From Xanthobacteraceae bacterium (GTDB lineage Bacteria; Pseudomonadota; Alphaproteobacteria; Rhizobiales; Xanthobacteraceae), in assembly GCA_030043285.1 (NCBI GenBank), contig JASHXZ010000348.1, positions 1 to 14,051 of the forward strand: DNA of 14,051 bases, given 5' to 3'. Every line of letters starts with the position of its first letter. Positions within the stretch are counted from its first letter, which is position 1. Positions 2,453 to 14,051 of the stretch are shown here, in pieces. A program made the position numbers and the translations under genes. The notes below the pieces were generated by a model. It saw only the letters and a list, made by a program, of their open reading frames with translations. It ran no database searches and was not told the DNA's origin.

Positions 2453-3313
2453 TCAGTGCGACAGCGCGCGAGAGACGTCGATCGCGTAGAAAACGCAGAG
2501 CGCAAGGCTCGCCCAGACCGCCGCGCTGAAATAAAGCGACATCCAGGGAATCTCGCCTCTCCATTCGGCAAGGTCGTGCGTCACGACCCAGCGCGTACTC
2601 ACGTCCCTCAGGCCATCGAGCGGTCTCAGTCGCCTGCCGCCATCGGCAAGCGTTGCCCGCCATCGGCTCACGTACATCGGCACATCGACAGACACCAGAA
2701 ACGTCAGATAGCCTGCGATTCCAACGATCGCGACGGCGAGGATCGCCCGAACCGGACCATCAAAATCCGGCAACACCCGGCCGAGACCAATGCCGACCGC
2801 CAGGAAAGCAACGGCCCATATCGAATTTTCGATCGCGCTGCCCAGGTAGTCGGTGGTCAGCACCGCATACCATGAGAAACATTCAGCGATGAGAATGAGC
2901 GGCGTGACCGCCCAGGCGATGTTTATGGTCGTTTCCGCTCCCGTCATCGTACCGAGTTGATGCAACACGATGGCCCACTGCATCACGAAGCAGACCTCGG
3001 CGACGGTTGCCACCAAACGCCCGACGACAACGCTCGACAGCCATGTGTCGAACAGGCAGATGCGTTGCACGTCGGCGCGCGGCAGCAACGACCTGAATGC
3101 GCAGCCGAAGACATAGGCGGCGCAAAGGAAGAGCATGACCTCGATACCGGACGCGCCGTCGAGACGGCCGGCCGGCCGGCCGTGGAGCTGGTCGTAAAGC
3201 AGGAACCAAACGGCGATGTTCGCGCCGCTGACCAGGGTCAACAGACTCCACCACCAGGCCAGCGGATTCGACCAAGCCAGCGAACCTGGCCGGGCCTGCC
3301 ATTCCACGCTCAT
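2453..3313 (-). CDS. Multi-pass membrane protein of unknown function
   Basis: I do not recognise a characterised family. The 286-residue product starting MSVEWQARPG has about seven hydrophobic segments: roughly 18-40, 56-75, 93-115, 128-150, 160-180, 187-208 and 260-282. A conserved-looking block runs from RSLLPRADVQR through FDTWLSSVVVGR to EVCFVMQWA near 70-110, with charged residues set between membrane segments. No enzyme or transporter signature is visible. I chose the ATG at 3313. The frame stays open 27 codons further upstream (to 3394), but that part reads as low-quality coding and carries no better start; no strong ribosome-binding site is seen at 3313. It converges on phnE across a 20-bp gap and does not appear to belong to an operon. 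Confidence 0.7.
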   Translation of the reverse strand: MSVEWQARPGSLAWSNPLAWWWSLLTLVSGANIAVWFLLYDQLHGRPAGRLDGASGIEVMLFLCAAYVFGCAFRSLLPRADVQRICLFDTWLSSVVVGRLVATVAEVCFVMQWAIVLHQLGTMTGAETTINIAWAVTPLILIAECFSWYAVLTTDYLGSAIENSIWAVAFLAVGIGLGRVLPDFDGPVRAILAVAIVGIAGYLTFLVSVDVPMYVSRWRATLADGGRRLRPLDGLRDVSTRWVVTHDLAEWRGEIPWMSLYFSAAVWASLALCVFYAIDVSRALSH

Positions 3314-3365
3314 GGGCCGCACTCTGTATGTCGCCGAACTGACATTTAGCCGTAGTAATAGTGTC

Positions 3366-3379
3366 ATGCAAATGTGCAT
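3366..3379. repeat. Perfect 14-bp palindrome (5-bp arms, 4-bp centre)
   Basis: ATGCA-AATG-TGCAT lies 53-66 bp upstream of the membrane-protein start codon, in a position where an operator could overlap that gene's promoter. Its arms are short enough to occur by chance. No regulator is encoded nearby. Confidence 0.35.
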
Positions 3380-3758
3380 CGGCGCTAGTGGCACAAGGTG
3401 GACGGCGGCCGGGTTCTCGGTCGTCGGGGGTCTGGTCGAACCACGCCAGAGGCACGTTCGGCTCGCAGGTGGCCGGGTCGGCGAGATCCACGCGTTCCAT
3501 TCCCCTCGGCAGGATGGTTCGCGAAAGTAAAAGTTAAAGTTGTATTGCCGTCAAAAAAGGCGGGCAGTCCGGCACCGGCTCAGTTTGAAATCCCGAGCTG
3601 ATCGCCGGTCTCCAAAATCAAATTGAAACAGTGCCAGCGGGTCATTCCCGCGGGACGTTTTGGCTTATTTTCGCTCGGAATGTTTCATCGCGTCGCAGGC
3701 ACTAGACAGAATCGAGCATAATTTGCGATAATCGCCGACAAACTCCTGGTTGCAGTTC

Positions 3759-4940: not shown

Positions 4941-6143
4941 ATGAGCATCACCCACCTTATCCGGTTGGCTTCCGTCCGGCTGATCAGCGCCGTAGCCGCC
5001 CTGACAGTTATTGCGGGCGCGGCGTTCGCCGCAGGCCCGTACGACATCAATGTGGTTTTGCCGCTCACCGGTAACGCAGCGTTCGTCGGACAGGGCCAGA
5101 AGGACGCGTTGTCGGCACTCGCGGATCAGATCAACAGCACTGGCGGAATAGGCGGCAGCAACCTCAATTTCCTGTTCCACGACGATCAATCGCAGCCCCA
5201 GGTCGCTGTCCAGCTCACCAATCAGGCGCTCGGCTCGAAGCCGGCCGTCGTGATGGGGTCAAGTCTGGTTGCGATGTGTCTGGCGATGGCGCCGCTGATG
5301 GCGAATGGACCGGTGCAGTATTGCCTGTCACCGGGCATCCATCCGAAGCCGGACAGCTACGTGTTCTCCACGAGCTCCTCATCGACGGATCAGATCGCGG
5401 CGGTGGTGCGATATTTCCGGATGAAGGGCTGGACCAAGATCGCCACGCTGATGACCACCGACGCCAGCGGCCAGGACGGCGACCGCTCGGTCGCCGACGT
5501 GCTGCAATATCCCGAGAACAAGGGCACGATGCAGGTCGTCATCCGCGAGCATTTCAATCCCTCGGATGTTTCGGTGGCGGCGCAAATGACGCGCATCAAA
5601 GGCTCGGGCGCGCAGGCGATCATCGCCTGGACCACCGGTGCACCGGCGGCGACCGTGTTTCGCAGCATGGCGCAAGAGGCGATCGACCTGCCGGTAGCGC
5701 CGACCAGCGGCAATCAAACCTTCGCCGCCATGAAGCAATGGCAGTCGTTCTTGCCGAAACAGCTGATCCTGGCTTCGGCGCTTTATCCGCCGCATCCGGC
5801 GAGCGTGAAGCTCGATCCGCGCGTCGACAGCGCCCAGCAGTCCATGTACGCCACATTGCAGAAGCATGGGCTCAAAGCCGACAACATGGTGGCGACGTCA
5901 TGGGACGCCGGCCTGATCGTGGTCGCGGCGCTGCGCAAGCTCGGCGCCGGCGCGACGGCTGCGCAGTTGCGGGACTATATCGCGGGGCTCACCGACTTTC
6001 CTGGCGTCGACGGCATCTACGACTTCAAGAAATATCCGCAACGCGGTGTCGGCCCGGATGCGTCGATCGTGACGGCTTATGATGCGAAGACGCAGGCCTG
6101 GGTGTGGCTGTCGCAACCGGGCGGAGCTCCGCTCGGCCAATAA
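4941..6143 (+). CDS. Branched-chain amino acid-type (HAAT) ABC transporter substrate-binding protein, paralogue 1
   Basis: Periplasmic binding protein of the LivJ/type I fold. A signal peptide (basic MSITHLIRLASVR, hydrophobic 14-28) ends AFA|A near residue 30. The mature chain opens with the class pattern YDINVVLPLTGNAAFVGQGQ, whose residues line the amino-acid pocket in LivJ. The 400 residues include two cysteines, C113 and C128, that are conserved in its paralogue at 9918-11108 and could form a disulfide. The start at 4941 has AGAGGA at 4928-4933. It lies beside, but converges on, the livHM-livG-livF operon: its stop is 12 bp from the livF stop. The ligand is unknown; an amino acid, another small acid or an amide are all possible. 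Confidence 0.88.
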   Translation: MSITHLIRLASVRLISAVAALTVIAGAAFAAGPYDINVVLPLTGNAAFVGQGQKDALSALADQINSTGGIGGSNLNFLFHDDQSQPQVAVQLTNQALGSKPAVVMGSSLVAMCLAMAPLMANGPVQYCLSPGIHPKPDSYVFSTSSSSTDQIAAVVRYFRMKGWTKIATLMTTDASGQDGDRSVADVLQYPENKGTMQVVIREHFNPSDVSVAAQMTRIKGSGAQAIIAWTTGAPAATVFRSMAQEAIDLPVAPTSGNQTFAAMKQWQSFLPKQLILASALYPPHPASVKLDPRVDSAQQSMYATLQKHGLKADNMVATSWDAGLIVVAALRKLGAGATAAQLRDYIAGLTDFPGVDGIYDFKKYPQRGVGPDASIVTAYDAKTQAWVWLSQPGGAPLGQ

Positions 6144-6155
6144 GCTTCCGGGAAG

Positions 6156-6980
6156 TTACGAGCGGACGCTATCGCTGCCGCGGCCCAGGATGGGTGCGAG
6201 GCCGCGCACAAGGTCCTTGCGGCGCAGACGTGCGCCCTCATCGTCGCCACTCGCGGAGCCGGCGCCGACGCCGAGATAGCGTTCGGCGATGGCTGGGTCG
6301 TTGAGCAGCTCCTGTCCCGTTCCCTCGAGCACGACGCGCCCCATCTCGATCACATAGGCCCGGTCGGCAATCGCAAGGCTCATGCGCGCATTCTGTTCCG
6401 ACAACAGAACGGCAAGCCCGCGCTGGCGGAAGCCGGCGATCAGTTGAAAGATCTGACTGACCAAAACCGGCGACAGGCCGAGCGAGGGTTCGTCGAGCAC
6501 GACGAGCCGCGGCTCCACCATCAACGCGCGGGCGATCGCCAGCATCTGCTGCTGGCCGCCCGACAGGTTGCCCGCCATCGCGGTCATGCGTTCCTCAAGA
6601 ACAGGGAAATGACGCCCGATCTCGGCAATGCGGGAATGAATGGCCGCGGAGCCGAGTCGCCGCCGCTGCGTGAACACGGCCAGTCGCAAATTGTCCTCGA
6701 CGGTCAGGCCGCCGATGATCTGGCGACCCTCCGGCACCTGCGCGATGCCGCGCGCGATGCGTTCATGCGCCGAGACTCGATTGATTTCCCGGCCTTCGAA
6801 CAGAATACGCCCGCGCGACGGCGACAGCACGCCGGCGAGCGTCTTGGCGAGCGTCGTCTTGCCCGCACCGTTCGCGCCGATCAGCGCGACGATCTCGCCG
6901 GCTGCGACGCGCAAGCTGACGCCGTGAAGCACCTCGGCAGCGCCATAGCCGGCGCAGAGACTCTGGATTTCAAGCATCAT
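6156..6980 (-). CDS. livF: HAAT ABC transporter ATP-binding protein LivF, with C-terminal extension
   Basis: One of the two different ATPases of a Liv-type importer. Walker A GANGAGKTT is at 35-43, the Q-loop AQVPEGR near Q81, the signature LSGGQQQ at 139-145 and Walker B LVVLDEP at 159-165. The switch region SEQN near 194-197 has Gln where most ABC proteins have His, which is normal for LivF. The core ends at RYLGV near residue 238. About 35 further charged, glycine-rich residues follow (DDEGARLRRKDLVRG...), making 274 rather than the usual 230-240. Two consecutive ATG codons (6980, 6977) are possible starts. The gene begins immediately after the livG stop, so translational coupling is expected. 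Confidence 0.92.
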   Translation of the reverse strand: MMLEIQSLCAGYGAAEVLHGVSLRVAAGEIVALIGANGAGKTTLAKTLAGVLSPSRGRILFEGREINRVSAHERIARGIAQVPEGRQIIGGLTVEDNLRLAVFTQRRRLGSAAIHSRIAEIGRHFPVLEERMTAMAGNLSGGQQQMLAIARALMVEPRLVVLDEPSLGLSPVLVSQIFQLIAGFRQRGLAVLLSEQNARMSLAIADRAYVIEMGRVVLEGTGQELLNDPAIAERYLGVGAGSASGDDEGARLRRKDLVRGLAPILGRGSDSVRS

Positions 6981-7751
6981 TCATTCCATTTGCGCACCGA
7001 GATAAGCCTCGACGACACGCGCGTCGCGTTGGACCTCCGCCGGTGCGCCGCGGGCAATGAGGCGGCCGAGATCGAGCACGATGACGTCATCGGCCACGTC
7101 CATGACAAGCGACATGTTGTGCTCGACAACCAGAATGGTGATGCCGTTGTCGCGAATGGCGCGCAACAGCGAGGCGAATTCCGCCGTCTCCGCGTCGGTG
7201 AGGCCGGCGGCGGGTTCGTCGAGCAGCAGCATGCGCGGTCGCGCCATCAATGCGCGACAGACTTCGACCAGCTTCTGGGCTCCCATGGGCAGGCTGGTAG
7301 CGGCGGCCGCGCTGAATGCCGATAGACCGACGAGATCGAGCAGCGCCTGCGCTTCGGCGGCAAGTTCTCGCTCCTCCTGGCGCGCACCGGGTAGCCACAG
7401 CATCTGGCGGACGCCGTGTGAGCGAACGCGGCGATGCGCCCCCGCGAGCACGTTGTCGAGTGTCGTCATGCCGGGAAAGACCCGCGCGGTCTGAAATGTG
7501 CGCTGGAGCCCGAGGCGGGCGATCTTCTCCGGCGCAAGCCCGGCCAGGGACGCCCCGTAGAAGCGCGCCTGCCCGGCGTCGGCGGGATAGAAATTGGTGA
7601 TGAGGTTGAACAGCGTCGTTTTGCCGGCGCCGTTCGGTCCGATCAGCGCCGCCACGCTGCCGTCAGCTACCGTGAACGACACGTCTTCGACCGCGTGCAC
7701 GCCACCGAAGGTTTTGACAAATCCGTCCACGGTGAGGGCTGGCGCGTTCAT
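6981..7751 (-). CDS. livG: HAAT ABC transporter ATP-binding protein LivG
   Basis: Second ATPase of the Liv-type importer, 256 residues. Walker A GPNGAGKTT is at 38-46, the Q-loop TFQTARVF near Q87, Walker B MLLLDEPAAGL from 174, and the H-loop His at 211 in VVEHNM. The ABC signature is unusual: LPMGAQK at 154-160, where LivG proteins normally have something like LPYGQQR. The start at 7751 overlaps the livHM stop as ATGA (7748-7751), which fixes it. The frame is open for 24 more codons upstream, but those lie inside livHM. It is followed with no gap by livF. Confidence 0.92.
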   Translation of the reverse strand: MNAPALTVDGFVKTFGGVHAVEDVSFTVADGSVAALIGPNGAGKTTLFNLITNFYPADAGQARFYGASLAGLAPEKIARLGLQRTFQTARVFPGMTTLDNVLAGAHRRVRSHGVRQMLWLPGARQEERELAAEAQALLDLVGLSAFSAAAATSLPMGAQKLVEVCRALMARPRMLLLDEPAAGLTDAETAEFASLLRAIRDNGITILVVEHNMSLVMDVADDVIVLDLGRLIARGAPAEVQRDARVVEAYLGAQME

Positions 7752-9655
7752 GGCAGCTTGTCCGCTGCGGCCGTTGGGGCAAAAGTCTCCATGAGCGCGC
7801 CGGCCAATCTTGAAACCAACCACGCCCCGCGCCCGAGCAATCCCTCCGGCAGATACCGAAAGACGATGACCAGGATGGCGCCTTCGGCGAGCGTCTTGTA
7901 GAGCGCCAGTGGCTGAAACAATGTCGGCAGCAGCGTGATCAGCGCCGCGCCAATCAGGCCGCCGATGAGCGTGCCATCGCCGCCAAGGATCAGCATCGCG
8001 ATCAGTTCGAACGACCGCGGGGTCGCGACCATCTCGGGCGAAAGAAAATGAAAATCGAAGGCATAGAGGCTGCCTGACAGCGAACCGAGCACCGCCGCAA
8101 TGGCGAAGGCGGCCATCTTATGCGCGGGCACGTTGATGCCGAGCGCCGCAGCCGCGGTCTGGTCCGTGCGGATCGCCTGCAGCGCGCGGCCGAAGCTCGA
8201 GCGCATGCCACCAAGCAGCACGAGCACGATGACGACGATCAAAGCGAGCGTGAAGAAATACATCGCCGTCGGACTGGCGAGCACCAGCGGGCCGATCGCG
8301 AACGAGGGGATACCGACCAAGCCGGACGGACCGCCGGTCAGATCGGTCAGGCCGACAGTGAGCGAATCGACCAGCAGGCCGAACGCCAGCGTGGCGAGCG
8401 CCAGATAGGCGCCGCGCAGCCGCATGGTCACCAGCGAGAGCACGAGCGCACAGGCGAGCGATAGAGCGATTCCCGCAGACGTTGCTGCCAACGGAGGCAC
8501 GCCGTAAGTCGTCGCCAGGATCGCGGACGTATAGCCGCCGATTGCCATGAACGCCGCCTGGCCCAGGCTGACCTGGCCGGCATAGCCCATGAGGACGTCG
8601 AGCCCGAGCACGCTGATGAAGAGGATCAGGGTGATGACCAGCGAACTCATCAGTCCGCCGTCGTTGATCACCCAGGGAATGGCCGCGAGAGCGATCACCA
8701 ACGCGATCCCGGCCAGCGCCGGCCCGTGCCCACGGAAATCCACGATAGCGCGGTGCACCCGCACGTCTTCGCGCACGTCGTGGCGCCGGGCACGCCGCGG
8801 CGCGAACAGCCCCTGCGGACGCCACAGCAGCGTGATGATCAGTAGCCCGAGCGCAACGCCATCGGCGAACAGCGAAGACACATAGCCGGCGGCAAGCTGC
8901 TCGGTCACGCCGAGAAAAAGCCCGCCCGCAACAGGTCCGATAAACGAGCTGGTGCCGCCGACCACCACGGCAATGAAGCCGGCATTGGTAAAGAAGCTGC
9001 CGGTGTCGAACTGGAACGACATCAGCGGCGCCACCGCGATGCCGCCGAGTGCGGCAATCATGGCGGAGATTCCGTAGCTCATCAGCGTCATGCGCGGCAC
9101 GTCGATGCCCATGATCTGCGCCGCCATGGGGTTTTCGGCGCACGCGGCGAGCGCCTTGCCGAGCGCGGTTCGGCCCATCACGAACCACGTGGCGAGAATG
9201 ACAATTGCAGAGATGCCGGCGATCCACAGTCCCTGCGTCGGGACGAGCACGCCGAAAATATCGAGCGGCCGCTCGCCGGAAAAAGTCGGGGTTGCGTAGG
9301 GCTGACTGCCCCACAGCACCAACGTCAGTCCTTCAATGAAGGTGAGCAGGCCTGCGGTGAGCATCAGCATGCTGCTGTTCGGCAGATAGGCCAGGCCCGG
9401 CACGAAGGTGGTGCGCGCTATCACGAGTCCAAAGACTGTCGTGCCAGCGACCGCCGCCAGGATGGCGAGCGGCATCGGCCAGTTGAAGGTGACCTGGAAG
9501 GTGTAGCCGAGCAGCGCGCCAAAGATGCAGAAGGCGCCCTGCGCCAGATTGATGATCCCGGTGACGCGGTAGATCAGCGACAGGCCGAGCGCGATCAAGG
9601 CGAACACGCAGCCCTGCACGATGCCGCCGATGATGATCTGAACCGCCTGATCCAC
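7748..9655 (-). CDS. livHM: Fused HAAT ABC transporter permease LivH-LivM
   Basis: Both inner-membrane channel subunits of the Liv-type importer in one chain of 635 residues. Residues 1-285 are LivH-like (ALGLSLIYRVTGIINLAQG near the N-terminus; ATPase-docking loop LGKALAACAENPMAAQIMG near 165-183). An Arg-rich linker APRRARRHDVRED covers about 285-300. Residues 310-610 are LivM-like (LMGYAGQVSLGQAAFMAIGG near 355-374; docking loop SFGRALQAIRTDQTAAAALG near 487-506). No stop or frameshift separates the halves. I start at the GTG at 9655, where LivH homology begins (VDQAVQIIIGG); another GTG at 9733 would add 26 non-hydrophobic residues. Neither has a strong ribosome-binding site. It is first in the livHM-livG-livF operon. 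Confidence 0.9.
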   Translation of the reverse strand: MDQAVQIIIGGIVQGCVFALIALGLSLIYRVTGIINLAQGAFCIFGALLGYTFQVTFNWPMPLAILAAVAGTTVFGLVIARTTFVPGLAYLPNSSMLMLTAGLLTFIEGLTLVLWGSQPYATPTFSGERPLDIFGVLVPTQGLWIAGISAIVILATWFVMGRTALGKALAACAENPMAAQIMGIDVPRMTLMSYGISAMIAALGGIAVAPLMSFQFDTGSFFTNAGFIAVVVGGTSSFIGPVAGGLFLGVTEQLAAGYVSSLFADGVALGLLIITLLWRPQGLFAPRRARRHDVREDVRVHRAIVDFRGHGPALAGIALVIALAAIPWVINDGGLMSSLVITLILFISVLGLDVLMGYAGQVSLGQAAFMAIGGYTSAILATTYGVPPLAATSAGIALSLACALVLSLVTMRLRGAYLALATLAFGLLVDSLTVGLTDLTGGPSGLVGIPSFAIGPLVLASPTAMYFFTLALIVVIVLVLLGGMRSSFGRALQAIRTDQTAAAALGINVPAHKMAAFAIAAVLGSLSGSLYAFDFHFLSPEMVATPRSFELIAMLILGGDGTLIGGLIGAALITLLPTLFQPLALYKTLAEGAILVIVFRYLPEGLLGRGAWLVSRLAGALMETFAPTAAADKLP

Positions 9656-9867
9656 GCTGCTGCGCCGTTCGTTTTCAGTATCGGGACTTGCCCGGATAAC
9701 GTTGCTTCGGCTCGCTTGGCAGCGCAATCCCACGTAATGGCCATCTTGTCACGGCCACTGTCTGCAGGCGAACGCTGTCCGGCACGGCGGCAGAGTGCCA
9801 CGCCCACCATCGTTGCTGGGCCGAGCGGCCGCCTCTAGTCTGGCGGGTCGAGAAAGGCTGAGCCGAA

Positions 9868-9890
9868 CCGCCGTCGAAATCGACAGGCGG
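9868..9890 (+). promoter_or_regulatory. Leader hairpin upstream of the second binding-protein gene
   Basis: CCGCC-GTCGA-AA-TCGAC-A-GGCGG forms a ten-pair stem with one bulged A, ending 27 nt before the start codon. Its 3' arm overlaps a second possible stem, GCGGC (9887-9891) with GCCGC (9898-9902), which sits just before the GAGGAG ribosome-binding site at 9905. The two stems cannot form together. It could be a translational switch or a DNA operator; the sequence does not say which. Confidence 0.4.
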
Positions 9891-9904
9891 CGCGACAGCC
9901 GCGC

Positions 9905-9910
9905 GAGGAG
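9905..9910 (+). promoter_or_regulatory. Ribosome-binding site deciding the start of the second binding protein
   Basis: GAGGAG with a 7-nt spacer to the ATG at 9918. It rules out the longer open frame that begins at 9795. Confidence 0.75.
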
Positions 9911-9917
9911 CTTACCG

Positions 9918-11108
9918 ATGAAGACTAAAGCCTTGTTGCCGTGCGTGCTGGCCGTCGTACCCCTTGCGCTGGGGATGATCGGATCGGCGCCGGCTCGCGC
10001 CGCCGAGCCCTACCAGATCAATGTGGTAGTGCCGTTGACCGGCTCCGGCGCATTTCTGGGCCAAGGCGAAAAACAGGCGCTCGAACTGGCGCAAAAGTCC
10101 GTCAACGATGCAGGCGGGATCAAGGGTCGGCCGCTGCAATTCATTTTCCAGGACGACCAATCGAATCCGCAGGTCGGCGTGCAGCTCGCGAGCGGCATCG
10201 TGGCAAAGAAGCCGGCGGTGATCCTGGGCTCTTCACTGGTCGCGGTCTGTCGGGCGATCGCTCCGCTGATGAAGAACGGCGGTCCGGTCCATTACTGCTT
10301 TTCACCAGGTCTGCATCCGCCGCCAGGGAGCTATTCATTTACCGCCAGCGTGTCGACCTATGACCTCGCTGATTTGGCCATCCGTTATTTTCGGCAGAAG
10401 GGTTGGACTCGCCTCGCCTTCCTGTTCAGCGCCGACGCCACCGGTCAGGATGCCGAGAACGGCTTCGACAAGATTTTGGCGATGCCGGAAAATAAGGACA
10501 TGAAAGTTGTCGCCAAGACGCACTTCAACATCACCGATGTGAGCGTCGCGGCACAAATCGAGAGCATCAAGGCGGCGCAGCCGCAGGCGTTTGTCGCCTG
10601 GAGTACCGGCACGCCGATTGCCACCGTCTTCCGCGGCATGATTCAAGCCAACTTGAACGTGCCGATGGCGACGACCGACGGCAACATGACGTACGAGCAG
10701 ATGAAGAGCTACGCTTCGTTTCTGCCCGAGCAGCTCTACATTCCGGCCGGCCAGTACGTCATCCGCGATCCCTCGCTGGTGCCGCCGGCGGTCGCCAAGG
10801 AGCAAGTCGAATTTAATAGCGTTTATGACGGCGCCAAGCTCAAGCCCGACGAACCGTCGGAGCTTGCCTGGCAACCGGCGATGGTCGTCATCCACGCCTT
10901 GCAGACCCTTGGGCCGGATGCCAGCGCCGAGCAAATCCGCAATTTCATCGCCAATCTGGAAAATTACCCGAGCATCGACGGCATGTTGAATTTCAAAACG
11001 GTGCCGCAGCGCGGGCTCTCGGTCGACAACGCCGTCATGACGCTGTGGAGCAAGCAAAACCGGGTCTGGCAGGTGGTGAGCAAGCCCGGCGGTGCGCCGC
11101 TGCCTTGA
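9918..11108 (+). CDS. Branched-chain amino acid-type (HAAT) ABC transporter substrate-binding protein, paralogue 2
   Basis: Periplasmic binding protein of the LivJ fold, 396 residues. The signal peptide (MKTK, hydrophobic core 6-22) is cut at ARA|AE near residue 28. The pocket-forming start YQINVVVPLTGSGAFLGQGE parallels paralogue 1. The two proteins also share DDQS-PQV-VQL, KPAV--GSSLVA-C, APLM, YC-SPG-HP-P-SY, DVSVAAQ and a C-terminal SxPGGAPL, plus both cysteines (C111, C127 here). They are clearly duplicates but have diverged along their whole length. The gene is divergent from livHM, so it probably feeds the same membrane complex. Two similar receptors suggest two ligands or two affinities. 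It converges on the NCS2-like permease gene across 91 bp. Confidence 0.9.
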   Translation: MKTKALLPCVLAVVPLALGMIGSAPARAAEPYQINVVVPLTGSGAFLGQGEKQALELAQKSVNDAGGIKGRPLQFIFQDDQSNPQVGVQLASGIVAKKPAVILGSSLVAVCRAIAPLMKNGGPVHYCFSPGLHPPPGSYSFTASVSTYDLADLAIRYFRQKGWTRLAFLFSADATGQDAENGFDKILAMPENKDMKVVAKTHFNITDVSVAAQIESIKAAQPQAFVAWSTGTPIATVFRGMIQANLNVPMATTDGNMTYEQMKSYASFLPEQLYIPAGQYVIRDPSLVPPAVAKEQVEFNSVYDGAKLKPDEPSELAWQPAMVVIHALQTLGPDASAEQIRNFIANLENYPSIDGMLNFKTVPQRGLSVDNAVMTLWSKQNRVWQVVSKPGGAPLP

Positions 11109-11199
11109 TGGCCGGCGCAGTGGGGACGTGTCGGCTTAAGCCGGCGGCGGACGCAACCACTAACCGCCGAGTCGGCTCGCCTCCTTCAGCCGTAGCGAC

Positions 11200-12798
11200 C
11201 TACTCCGCTGGAGTCGCCGCCGCCAGCACCTCACGATGGCCTGTGAGCGCCGGCGCCAGGGCCGGGTAGCGGCTGAGCGCGAACAAGAATACCGCGACGA
11301 TCAGATAGGCGACTGCTACCGTCGGCGTCACCGCGATGCCGACCGCCTGCCCGTGCATGAAGCCAAAGAAAGTGAGCACTGCGCCGGCGAGCGCAAAGGC
11401 GGCGGCATTGACGAACTTCTTGTCGATCACATTGGCGCCTACGGCGGCAAGCACCAAACCGGTGAGAATAGCGCCACCGCCCATGATCTGCAGCCCCGGA
11501 TAGAGCACGCCGACATTGGCGAGGTTGTCGAAGCCGAGTTTCGCAGCATCGGTCCCGGCAACCTGCAGCGCACCGTCCATCAGCGTCTTGGCCCAGGCCG
11601 CCACGTGCGGCGCCAGCGCCAGCACGATCGCCGGCGCGTGAAGCTTCGGCGTCGTCTGGAAGGCCTGCGCGCCGATCAGCATGCCGATGTAGAGCAGGAT
11701 TGGCGAGATGGCGACGACCGGCACGACCGCCAGCAGGAGTGCGATCACACCGAACCACGACAGCACGATCACCATGAGGCCGGTGGCGGCTGAATAACCG
11801 ATGCGGCCGCCCATCCCCTTCCAACCGGGATGGCCGATGTAAACCGCGTTGATGTAGGGATTGCCCATCAGGCAACCGATCAGGCTGACGATGCCATCGG
11901 CCGTCAGCACGCGCGTGGTCGGGTAGGGATCGCCGGCCGCTTCCGCGCTCTCGACGTTGTCCATGGCCTCGACCAGATCGTAGATGCCGAACGGCACCGC
12001 GGTGACGAGGATGATGCCGAGATATTTGAAGCCCGCGAACACGTGACCGAAGGCCGGAAGCGGCACATTGAAGCCGAAATTAGAAAAGGCATCGACCACG
12101 CCCTTGCTGGTCAGTCCGCCGTAGCCGAGCCCGAGCAGGTTCGAACCCCAAGCGATGAGCATGCCGACGGCAATGGCGACGAGCCCGGCGGGAACGCCGA
12201 ACGGATATTTGAAGCCGCCGAGCCAGTTCACCATGATAATGGCGAGACAAGTGAACCCGATCACCGGAGTCATGAAGATTTGCAGCGCCGGCGTCATGGA
12301 GATGAAGGTGATCGATACTCCGGCGAGGGTGCCGAGCAGCGCAGCGCGCGGAGTGATCTTCCGGATAATCGGAGCGATGAAGCCGCCAATCATCAGGATG
12401 AAGCTCTGGAAGAACACCCAAACGAGCCCGGCTTCCCAGGCCTGGATGGGGTCGTTGGTGGCGAGCTTGATGGGCAGCATGACGACCAGCGTGACGATGA
12501 ACATGTGCGGCACGCTGATGCCCGACGGCAACGCGCAGACGTCGTCGCGACCGGTCCGCTTCGCCAGCCGATAGGCGAGATAGGCGTAGTACATGGTCGA
12601 CAGGAACATCATCAGGCCCATCGCCGGCAGGATGCGGCCGAACACGATGGCGTCAGGCATTTTCAGCACGAAGCGCAATAGAATGGTCAGCGTCAGCATG
12701 TTGACCAAAATATTGGTGCCAAAGCCGAAGAACGCATTCCAGTCGCCGGGCGACCACAAACGCGGCCGAAAATCTGCCTTGGCTGTCATGGTGGTCAT
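11200..12798 (-). CDS. AzgA/NCS2-like permease, candidate importer of a ureide- or nucleobase-like compound
   Basis: Inner-membrane secondary transporter of 532 residues with about 12-14 hydrophobic segments. The segment FGIYDLVEAMDNVESAEAAG, then ADGIVSLIGCLMGNPYIN, then a YIGHPGWKGMGGRIGYSAATG-type loop, has the spacing of the AzgA (hypoxanthine/guanine) branch of NCS2, where DxxGT, ADA and GGRTG blocks occur. The exact residues differ, so the usual purine substrate should not be assumed. The ATG at 12798 has GGGAG at 12805-12809, which favours it over the longer open frame to 12915. It lies 34 bp behind the BiuH-like hydrolase gene and is almost certainly co-transcribed with it, so biuret, triuret or a cyanurate-related solute is a reasonable substrate guess. 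Confidence 0.8.
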   Translation of the reverse strand: MTTMTAKADFRPRLWSPGDWNAFFGFGTNILVNMLTLTILLRFVLKMPDAIVFGRILPAMGLMMFLSTMYYAYLAYRLAKRTGRDDVCALPSGISVPHMFIVTLVVMLPIKLATNDPIQAWEAGLVWVFFQSFILMIGGFIAPIIRKITPRAALLGTLAGVSITFISMTPALQIFMTPVIGFTCLAIIMVNWLGGFKYPFGVPAGLVAIAVGMLIAWGSNLLGLGYGGLTSKGVVDAFSNFGFNVPLPAFGHVFAGFKYLGIILVTAVPFGIYDLVEAMDNVESAEAAGDPYPTTRVLTADGIVSLIGCLMGNPYINAVYIGHPGWKGMGGRIGYSAATGLMVIVLSWFGVIALLLAVVPVVAISPILLYIGMLIGAQAFQTTPKLHAPAIVLALAPHVAAWAKTLMDGALQVAGTDAAKLGFDNLANVGVLYPGLQIMGGGAILTGLVLAAVGANVIDKKFVNAAAFALAGAVLTFFGFMHGQAVGIAVTPTVAVAYLIVAVFLFALSRYPALAPALTGHREVLAAATPAE

Positions 12799-12804
12799 CG
12801 CAGG

Positions 12805-12809
12805 CTCCC
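12805..12809 (-). promoter_or_regulatory. Ribosome-binding site of the permease gene
   Basis: GGGAG on the minus strand, 6 nt before the ATG at 12798. It selects this start over upstream codons that lie inside the hydrolase gene. Confidence 0.65.
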
Positions 12810-12832
12810 GTTCTGCTGCTCGCGGCCGTTCA

Positions 12833-13537
12833 TCAAATTGCGACCCGCTTGGTGCCGCGCCTGGACAAGACCGCGAGCGCGTCAACCAGCGGAGGCGACG
12901 GCGCGACTGAACCAAAAATGCCGCCCTGCGCCTTGATCATGGCCAAGCCCGCTTCGTGGAATTTCGGAAAATAGGAAGCGCAGCAATCGGCCAGCACGAT
13001 GCAGCGGAAGCCCCGGTCGTTGGCCTCGCGCACCGTCGTGTTGACGCACACTTCGGTCGTGACGCCGCAAACGAACAATGTGTCGATGCCGCGGTTGCGC
13101 AGCATGAGTTCCAGATCGGTCTGGTAGAACGCGCCCTTGCCGGGCTTGTCGATCACTGGTTCGTCGCGCAGCGGATAAAGTTCGGGAACGATGTCGTGGC
13201 CCGGTTCGCCGCGAATGAGAATGCGGCCCATTGGTCCAGGCGCGCCGATGCGGTTTCTGGGATCGCCGCGGTGAAGTTTGAGCGGCGGCGCGTCGGACAG
13301 ATCGGGCCGATGGCCTTCGCGCGTATGGATGACCAGCATGCCGAGTTCGCGCGCGGTGCCGAGCATCGCCTGGCACGGCGCCACCGCGCCGCGCAGGCGT
13401 GTAACGTCATTGCCCAGCGCTTCGCCAAAGCCGCCGGCTTCGAGGAAGTCGCGCTGCATGTCGATGATCAACAACGCCGCGTTGTCGGTATCGACGATTA
13501 GCGACGCCGGTTCAGCCTCGATCTTGACGCGCGGCAC
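12833..13537 (-). CDS. biuH: Cysteine hydrolase of the isochorismatase-like superfamily, probable biuret (or triuret) hydrolase
   Basis: Probably deamidates biuret to allophanate plus ammonia in the cytoplasm. The catalytic triad is D26 (IIDMQRDF), K131 (DKPGKGAF) and C164 (TTEVCVNTT). As I recall R. leguminosarum BiuH (D36, K142, C175, plus F41, K145, Q215), all six positions are conserved at matching spacing: F31, K134 and Q204 here. The signature HTREGHRPDL and the run GRILIRGEPGHDIVPELYP are BiuH/TrtA-like; RutB ureidoacrylate hydrolase lacks the second lysine of KPGKG. The 234-residue length fits. The GTG at 13537 has GGGAGAG at 13543-13549, so the longer frame to 13663 is unlikely. It sits behind a candidate sigma-54 promoter. 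Triuret hydrolase or a related amidase is the main alternative. Confidence 0.82.
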   Translation of the reverse strand: MPRVKIEAEPASLIVDTDNAALLIIDMQRDFLEAGGFGEALGNDVTRLRGAVAPCQAMLGTARELGMLVIHTREGHRPDLSDAPPLKLHRGDPRNRIGAPGPMGRILIRGEPGHDIVPELYPLRDEPVIDKPGKGAFYQTDLELMLRNRGIDTLFVCGVTTEVCVNTTVREANDRGFRCIVLADCCASYFPKFHEAGLAMIKAQGGIFGSVAPSPPLVDALAVLSRRGTKRVAI

Positions 13538-13542
13538 GCCCG

Positions 13543-13549
13543 CTCTCCC
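13543..13549 (-). promoter_or_regulatory. Ribosome-binding site deciding the GTG start of the biuH-like gene
   Basis: GGGAGAG on the minus strand, 5 nt before the GTG at 13537. It makes this the best start despite the non-ATG codon. Confidence 0.65.
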
Positions 13550-13571
13550 GCTCGATCTCTGCTGGTAGTGG

Positions 13572-13587
13572 TGCAAGATCGGGGCCA
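13572..13587 (-). promoter_or_regulatory. Candidate sigma-54 (-24/-12) promoter for the biuH-permease operon
   Basis: Minus strand reads TGGCCCC-GATC-TTGCA. The invariant GG (-24) and GC (-12) are present at exact spacing and the -12 box is perfect; the -24 box differs from TGGCACG at two positions. Transcription would begin near 13561, about 24 nt before the start codon, leaving room for the ribosome-binding site. Confidence 0.6.
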
Positions 13588-13597
13588 GCGGAAATTG

Positions 13598-13661
13598 GCC
13601 TTTCCTGCGGCATACGACGCACGAATGCCTGTTTATTGAGCTTCGGCTGCACAAGAAAGGC
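13598..13661. repeat. Nested dyad symmetries in the divergent control region
   Basis: GCCTTTCCTGCG (13598-13609) and CACAAGAAAGGC (13650-13661) are inverted copies matching at 10 of 12 positions. Between them GGCAT-N11-ATGCC (13609-13629) is a perfect interrupted palindrome with the T-N11-A spacing of LysR-type sites. The location, between two sigma-54 elements facing apart, is where an enhancer-binding protein or a specific regulator would bind. No exact TGC-N11-GCA NtrC site was found; the nearest forms are off by one or two bases in spacing. Confidence 0.4.
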
Positions 13662-13746
13662 ATGAGCGTCCAGTCGCCGACTGTATAAGCCGAGCTGGAA
13701 TCGCAGGAGAATAATGGCTTAAATCAAGGCGGCAGCGGGCTGTCGG

Positions 13747-13761
13747 TGGCACGCGGCTTGC
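13747..13761 (+). promoter_or_regulatory. Sigma-54 (RpoN) promoter for the atzG-like gene
   Basis: TGGCACG-CGGC-TTGC matches the -24/-12 consensus at every defined position, with GG at 13748-13749 and GC at 13760-13761. Initiation would fall near 13773, giving a leader of about 60 nt. RpoN promoters need an activator such as NtrC, so nitrogen control is the likeliest regulation. Confidence 0.75.
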
Positions 13762-13835
13762 GGGGAAGTGCCCTGTCATCTTGCCCCGGGATTTCTGCAG
13801 CAGTGAAACGTAGAGCAAAGCCAAAACCGAACGCC

Positions 13836-14051
13836 ATGCGCCTCAAGCCCGGCAGCAAGCGCGCGACGTCTGGTGCGCGCCACGCGCCGGCTGAGACGCC
13901 GAGCGACTTTCTTGATCTGCTGATTGCCGGGGGCACGCAGGCGCTGGGCCTGACGATCGATCCGGCCTGGCACAGCAGTATCAAGTTCAATCTCGGACTG
14001 GTCCTGCGACTTGCGGCGCTGTTCGACAGTTTTCCGCTTGCCGATGACGCC
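13836..14051 (+). CDS. DUF4089/AtzG-like small subunit, 3'-partial
   Basis: Seventy-two codons are present and the frame runs off the window. After a basic, Ala/Lys/Arg-rich tail of about 20 residues, the segment SDFLDLLIAGGTQALGLTID, then W, then FNLGLVLRLAALFDSFPLADDA, has the DUF4089 pattern: a helix ending ALGL, a central helix N-L---L-L-A, then FPL-D. AtzG, the small partner of 1-carboxybiuret hydrolase AtzE, belongs to this family, and such proteins usually precede an amidase gene. The ATG at 13836 marks the point where G/C third-position bias begins; an in-frame GTG at 13803 would add 11 residues (VKRRAKPKPNA). Neither has a clear ribosome-binding site. It is divergent from the BiuH-like gene. 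Confidence 0.7.
   Translation, partial: MRLKPGSKRATSGARHAPAETPSDFLDLLIAGGTQALGLTIDPAWHSSIKFNLGLVLRLAALFDSFPLADDA

Follow-up and report, generated by a model that had tools for sequence, protein, structure and literature searches.

What does a locus do that joins a cysteine hydrolase and a permease to a divergent AtzG-like gene across sigma-54-type promoter elements, and which compound does it serve? The question arises at the right end of a 14,051-nucleotide stretch of DNA (the window; GenBank JASHXZ010000348.1, assembly GCA_030043285.1), which is the entire contig C72 of a metagenome-assembled genome (MAG) of a soil-type Xanthobacteraceae bacterium, 65.7% complete. We confirmed the three-gene locus there, with the hydrolase and permease genes on the minus strand and the AtzG-like gene divergent from them on the plus strand. 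A first-pass annotation had read the hydrolase as BiuH-type; our analysis assigns it to the TrtA type. At a probability of roughly 0.64, the locus is a sigma-54-dependent nitrogen-scavenging unit that takes up triuret and degrades it via carboxybiuret, AtzEG, AtzH and AtzF, bypassing biuret. Gene identities, residues, clades, the predicted fold, linkage, co-occurrence and conserved promoter elements were all computed here.

The hydrolase is of the TrtA type

The hydrolase belongs to Pfam family PF00857 (162.5 bits, cut-off 27). Its GTG start, with first base 13537, was placed by alignment to relatives; the longest open reading frame (ORF; 276 residues, from 13663) was discarded as too long, and it would begin upstream of the promoter. 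The best solved relative is the Herbaspirillum TrtA (6XIX, E value 4e-76), with biuret hydrolases next, and the identity is 57.5% to this TrtA and 51.6 and 52.9% to two BiuH enzymes. The hydrolase of the nearest named record, a Xanthobacteraceae MAG, is 85% identical to that of the window and identical to that of the same-genus genome G004.

In the alignment, residues D24, F29, K129, K132, C162 and Q202 are kept, among them the Asp-Lys-Cys triad (D24, K129, C162). The active-site residues on which the BiuH assignment had been based are thus present, but they are common to TrtA and BiuH and do not diagnose either. Six other positions are reported to differ between the TrtA and BiuH consensus sequences (PMC7948467). 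The window hydrolase carries the TrtA residue at all six (F35, N41, A134, E160, Y187 and I205) and the BiuH residue (Y, Y, S, D, T and V) at none. In a 128-row tree, built by a quick method with support from the Shimodaira-Hasegawa-like approximate likelihood ratio test (SH-aLRT) and no bootstrap, 96 TrtA-signature and 30 BiuH-signature rows are split by one branch (SH-aLRT 99), two rows fitting neither signature, and the window enzyme falls in the TrtA clade.

The NCBIfam BiuH model NF050097, although still the best NCBIfam model for the hydrolase, gives it 268.1 bits, below the cut-off of 370. The scores of three further TrtA-type homologues are 266-278 bits, and that of a BiuH-signature homologue is 395.8. 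The homologues were labelled by their best BLAST match, which makes the residue table partly circular for them, though not for the window enzyme. BiuH was therefore rejected as the identity of the hydrolase on the model cut-off, the six residues and the clade, and its sequence identifies it as TrtA-type, a predicted triuret hydrolase. Because all positions that separate the two enzymes are TrtA-type, triuret, which had earlier been listed among several possible entry substrates, is now the predicted one.

A permease of predicted NCS2-type fold often follows TrtA-like genes

The permease gene lies 34 bp behind the hydrolase gene on the same strand. Its product has no family match in Pfam or NCBIfam, the NCS2 and AzgA models included, and no relative among PDB sequences. 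The predicted structure matches UraA and UapA over most of the chain, with the xanthine carrier UapA as the best match; identity to NCS2-fold structures is 10-14% in structure alignments, and short strands are predicted at 92-94 and 317-319, as in NCS2-type carriers. By its model, the permease has the NCS2/UraA fold and stands outside the NCS2/AzgA sequence-family models, so the earlier label "AzgA/NCS2-like" is right for the predicted fold and wrong for the sequence family. The widespread family to which it belongs, of at least 8000 proteins with a predicted NCS2 fold, has no family model.

Gene order was compared in two sets of TrtA-like loci, one from relatives and one of named records. The named set comprises the best 80 of 579 confirmed places for a TrtA-like hydrolase and is rich in Bradyrhizobium; two hydrolases are shared by both sets (L052 = L100, L069 = L108). 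Where at least 2 kb of downstream sequence was present, the permease gene came next after the TrtA-like gene on the same strand in 60 of 76 named loci (median gap 68 bp) and directly behind it in 16 of 28 loci of relatives. Pooled, the sets give 79 of 107, or 28 of 44 with hydrolases collapsed at 80% identity. This bears out the earlier suggestion that the hydrolase is coupled to a secondary transporter, apparently a dedicated one. Among the hosts are records labelled Verrucomicrobium, Chloroflexi, Fibrobacteria, Catellatospora and Gammaproteobacteria, and in two loci (L172 and L087) the permease gene is just upstream of the TrtA-like gene instead.

A search started from the permease found a homologue in 46 of 398 genomes of the phylum, 16 of which, at 27-39% identity, were left out of locus fetching. 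At 70-76% identity, a TrtA-like gene was directly upstream in all 12 newly fetched loci of this sample, and likewise in G040 and G044. Permeases at 51-53% identity in a Chloroflexi MAG and Catellatospora also stand behind a TrtA-like gene, and a 50% homologue (L197) has one about 400 bp downstream. Four E. coli-type homologues (40-41% to the window protein) lie between AllG and carbamate kinase. For ten homologues at 38-41%, the 1.5 kb fetched to either side held no TrtA-like gene. One of these ten (40%; L207:1489-3051) lies between xanthine-dehydrogenase/XdhC-like and guanine-deaminase-like genes, named by eye, and from that context the wider permease family may carry purines.

Co-occurrence was scored in 101 genomes, in sets compiled by hand. 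A hydrolase match at an E value of 1e-30 was found in 36, of which G016, G064, G096 and G097 were excluded from the TrtA set for being BiuH-type or too distant, with G096 judged on identity only. Fisher p-values on these sets take no account of relatedness. At the thresholds used, the permease is present in 21 of the 32 genomes with a TrtA-like gene and in 0 of the 69 without.

From its frequent company, we propose the protein as a candidate triuret permease. It might instead carry a purine or another ureide, which is unlikely but the least unlikely of the alternatives. The UapA match, the database names (purine or xanthine permease) and the purine-gene neighbourhood of the L207 homologue, read by eye without a family search, would suit such a substrate. 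Set against them are the 12 fetched loci with permeases of 70-76% identity, every one of which has the permease gene behind a TrtA-like gene, the same order at 51-53% identity, and the lack of any genome among the 101 with the permease and without a TrtA-like gene.

AtzG and AtzE often accompany TrtA

The divergent DUF4089/AtzG-like gene of the first-pass annotation stands: the fragment scores 28.2 bits against PF13318 in the genome search and 26.9 when scored alone (cut-off 24). The window holds the first 83 codons, and the GTG start aligns with the ATG of relatives. In G015, the closest relative by permease (92%), the genes run permease, hydrolase, divergent AtzG (49 bits) and AtzE amidase up to the contig end, with an allophanate hydrolase on another contig. 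The window's genome has one AtzE, on contig C742 (716 bits, cut-off 461), which shares 71% identity with the AtzE of a relative and 83% with the fragment in G015. Judged against different relatives, contig C742 begins about 16-22 residues inside AtzE, and the C72-C742 junction falls outside the assembly. From the spacing in G015, worked by hand, the two contig ends would be about 80 bp apart; AtzE most likely lies just beyond the end of C72. The partner amidase that had been expected after the DUF4089 gene thus directly follows atzG in G015, and C742 fits the continuation in the window's own genome.

Other relatives vary this arrangement. G012 resembles the window and G015 in having atzG as the divergent neighbour, and in G003, of the same genus, an operon for an Opp-type ATP-binding cassette (ABC) transporter lies between promoter and atzG. 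The divergent gene encodes an Opp-type binding protein in G001, G004 and G006, where Opp-atzG-atzE is on another contig; a G003-like order is therefore likely in these genomes. G060 has atzG, atzE, atzH, a GntR regulator, atzF, the hydrolase and the permease within 9 kb. Terrarubrum flagellatum has, on one strand, an ABC transporter, the hydrolase, the permease (annotated "regulator"), atzF, DUF4089, AtzE and hpxZ (the AtzH family).

AtzE is present in 17 of the 92 TrtA loci that had 4 kb on either flank, and these 17 also hold AtzH (16), AtzF (13) and the permease (11). In 17 further, unlinked AtzG regions, AtzG is found with AtzE in 16, AtzH in 11 and AtzF in 9; the AtzG of one region (L224) was missed by the BLAST references though found earlier by search, and another region (L230) belongs to G046, a genome without a TrtA match. 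Across the 101 genomes, AtzG is present in 28 of 32 TrtA genomes versus 9 of 69 others (7 of 9 versus 0 of 11 within the genus), and AtzF in 29 of 32 versus 16 of 69. AtzG or BiuH is present in 31 of the 32, a weak fit to the pathway. Neither BiuH nor an AtzD-family gene was found in 15 of the 28 genomes with TrtA and AtzG, some of them incomplete; there, TrtA is the only recognisable source of carboxybiuret and AtzEG the only recognisable sink. The earlier remark was that no cyanuric acid hydrolase is visible; an AtzD-family gene was not found in the window's own 65.7%-complete genome either, and 9 of the 28 have one.

The intergenic region carries divergent sigma-54 elements

Two -24/-12 elements, TGGCACGCGGCTTGCG on the plus strand and TGGCCCCGATCTTGCA on the minus strand, lie back to back in the intergenic region, each with one mismatch to the consensus. 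They have GG at -24, GC at -12 and consensus spacing and are conserved upstream; in five same-genus loci both are nearly invariant, in agreement with the elements first noted in both directions. Any site at one mismatch or fewer arose in only 20 of 2000 simulated 298-bp stretches. The loose pattern, with up to three mismatches, showed no excess in the window (17 found versus 28.7 expected).

A site of two mismatches or fewer lies within 300 bp upstream of the TrtA-like gene in 73 of 106 loci versus 70 of 2000 simulated sequences of the window's dinucleotide composition. In the slightly larger pooled set the count is 75 of 115, or 22 of 47 once loci are collapsed at 80% identity. Sigma-54 control is not universal, because the 33 of 106 loci without a site include non-alphaproteobacteria and several Alphaproteobacteria such as Methylobacterium. 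As sequence evidence, the elements support RpoN control of the locus, and RpoN-type promoters fit NtrC-type nitrogen control.

A shared palindromic activator site between the promoters (GCCYR-N5-YRGGC) was considered and dropped, since the window lacks the pattern and only 9 of 73 upstream regions have it. Just upstream of the -24 element, 27 of 106 loci, for the most part from Bradyrhizobium (e.g., L118, L130 and L125), carry TTGTACACAA, which may be an operator for a GntR-type regulator.

A predicted triuret route without biuret

In the proposed route, the permease, of NCS2-type fold and presumably ion-coupled, would import triuret, and the TrtA-type hydrolase would remove one ammonia from it to yield carboxybiuret. 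AtzG and AtzE would then deaminate carboxybiuret to 1,3-dicarboxyurea, which AtzH or spontaneous decarboxylation would convert to allophanate, and the allophanate hydrolase AtzF would free the last two ammonias. Carboxybiuret would not need to pass through biuret, the logic being that of atzDGEHF with TrtA replacing AtzD. TrtA is reported to make carboxybiuret (PMC7948467), and AtzEG to act on carboxybiuret ahead of the AtzF reaction, with a likely role for AtzH (PMC6219798). That the hydrolase, the permease and AtzEG have these roles in the organism studied here is our inference. The published triuret route continues via biuret and BiuH; AtzEG is mentioned there as an existing carboxybiuret amidase and, as far as the accessible text of that paper goes, is not proposed for triuret (PMC7948467).

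The locus shares a TrtA-type first enzyme with the TrtA-BiuH-AtzF pathway described for Herbaspirillum sp. BH-1 and Rhizobium leguminosarum 3841, and its relatives likewise end in AtzF (PMC7948467). It differs from that pathway in three respects: no second, BiuH-type match was found in its own, incomplete genome; carboxybiuret is predicted to go to AtzEG instead of to TrtB or spontaneous decarboxylation and BiuH; and a permease is present, a word absent from the main text of that paper. With the atzDGEHF cyanuric acid operon of Pseudomonas sp. ADP (PMC6219798), it has in common AtzG-AtzE, the AtzH-AtzF of its relatives and the passage from carboxybiuret to ammonia, whereas TrtA stands in the place of AtzD. 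The same paper describes proteobacterial clusters of atzG-atzE-atzH with an allophanate hydrolase and ABC genes and, in the account available, assigns them no substrate; relatives of the window have the same genes, ABC genes included. Here, such genes are linked to a TrtA-type hydrolase and the unmodelled permease, and a substrate is thereby suggested. From the nucleobase-ascorbate (NCS2) and AzgA permeases (UraA, UapA, SVCT1 and AZG1), the window permease differs in sequence while sharing the predicted fold. Nitrifier triuret/biuret clusters also link TrtA or BiuH to a transporter, but there it is BmpA-NupABC, or CodB in some archaeal biuH contigs, and BiuH is present (PMC12625717).

Several observations weigh against a triuret route of this kind. 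The nitrogen-scavenging module that the first-pass annotation called self-contained has its divergent -24/-12 locus, its transporter and an AtzG most likely followed by AtzE; AtzH and AtzF, looked for alongside them, are in the clusters of relatives and were not found in the window's own 65.7%-complete genome. The link between C72 and C742 is itself inferred, and the genes that follow AtzE on C742, read by eye as ATP-grasp, alpha-E, transglutaminase and protease, are unlinked to the pathway. No such permease was found in 11 of the 32 TrtA genomes, and no AtzG in 4. A BiuH/AtzE either-or choice per TrtA locus was also tried and rejected (4 both, 20 BiuH only, 13 AtzE only, 55 neither; p = 1.0). 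The AtzG module is present in 9 of the 69 genomes without TrtA and can therefore serve another source. Finally, the AtzE set is not separated from oxalurate-pathway relatives, and the AtzH of the one relative tested also passes the HpxZ model (191 bits, cut-off 135), so this model does not separate AtzH from HpxZ.

The last two points, together with an Opp-AtzG-E-H-F cluster in G046, where no TrtA match was seen, would fit two units that share only nitrogen control: a hydrolase and permease for triuret, and an AtzG-AtzE for an oxalurate-type or Opp-imported amide. We regard this as improbable. Oxalurate breakdown should have no need of AtzF, and AtzF accompanies AtzE in 13 of the 17 TrtA loci. 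The unbroken row of TrtA, permease, atzF, atzG, atzE and atzH in T. flagellatum and the within-genus co-occurrence of AtzG (7 of 9 versus 0 of 11) also argue for one unit, as does the reported action of AtzEG on carboxybiuret, the product of TrtA (PMC7948467, PMC6219798). A BiuH that feeds allophanate straight to AtzF, with AtzEG incidental, would be in keeping with the 51.6 and 52.9% identities, the common catalytic residues and the best NCBIfam model, but the score about 100 bits under the cut-off, the absence of all six BiuH residues and the TrtA clade make it very unlikely. Least credible is a hydrolase for another ureide such as guanylurea: GuuH enzymes belong to this superfamily too and share as much as 65% identity with others in it (PMC9800807), but the window enzyme keeps all six TrtA positions, in a comparison made without a GuuH reference sequence.

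Features of the locus and other gene contexts

Table 1. Positions of the genes and promoter elements of the proposed triuret locus in the window.
Feature	Coordinates	Strand	Remarks
TrtA-type isochorismatase-like cysteine hydrolase (predicted triuret hydrolase)	12833-13537	-	GTG start; PF00857
Permease of unmodelled family, NCS2/UraA-type predicted fold; proposed triuret permease	11200-12798	-	ORF
AtzG-like small subunit gene, 5' part	13803-14051	+	PF13318; GTG start; contig end cuts gene
-24/-12 (sigma-54) element, hydrolase and permease side	13572-13587	-	TGGCCCCGATCTTGCA; position kept in relatives
-24/-12 (sigma-54) element, atzG (atzE) side	13747-13762	+	TGGCACGCGGCTTGCG; conserved in same-genus loci

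Elsewhere in the window, positions 4941-11108 encode LivF, LivG and a fused LivH-LivM permease flanked by two related type-6 binding proteins, which we read as a single ABC system, of the branched-chain-amino-acid or urea type, with a pair of binding proteins. These genes were considered as part of the module and dropped, both binding proteins having clustered with nothing in the other 40 loci. At the left end (20-2432) is a phosphonate/phosphite-type ABC transporter, its binding protein named by family search and its ATPase and permease by eye from ORFs. A 313-residue minus-strand ORF (2453-3394) has no Pfam match at an E limit of 10.

TrtA-like genes also occur in other settings. An E. coli IncF plasmid (L183; NZ_CP019909.1) has two related gene sets, at 7301-12859 and 24462-30887; a TrtA-signature hydrolase (65% to that of the window) opens a DUF2877/FdrA/DUF1116/carbamate-kinase/cytosine-permease cluster, and the second set includes a homologue of the window permease at 38.7% identity. 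Any hydrolase match was seen in 1123 plasmid records, and in 89 of these it is at 60-80% identity. In L124, L157, L171, L172, L179, L077 and L078, AllF/AllG-type and carbamate-kinase genes neighbour the TrtA-like gene, and the permease may be present or absent. Such contexts are a possible third downstream route, in which energy would be kept as carbamoyl phosphate.

Significance

The locus is a variant of known carboxybiuret pathways, and two claims are made for it: that the permease takes up triuret, and that triuret breakdown avoids biuret. Novelty was judged against open-access literature, mostly listings and abstracts, in which we found no triuret permease named; an ABC nucleoside-type transporter has been proposed for triuret from co-location (PMC12625717). 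We rate it slightly better than an even chance that the locus gives a first view of a transporter dedicated to triuret, in the TrtA-coupled branch of an NCS2-fold family, together with a biuret-bypassing route through TrtA, AtzEG, AtzH and AtzF that would give atzG-E-H-F clusters a substrate.

As an impurity, triuret is applied along with urea fertiliser, and the oxidation of uric acid can also produce it (PMC7948467). A permease so often behind TrtA is a direct candidate for its uptake. Why proteobacteria keep atzG-E-H without a cyanuric acid hydrolase is a question left by the AtzH paper (PMC6219798), and the pathway variant, if correct, would explain this in many of them. The route would also avoid making biuret, which requires an enzyme of its own, and genes now annotated as "regulator" and "cysteine hydrolase" would become readable as triuret genes.

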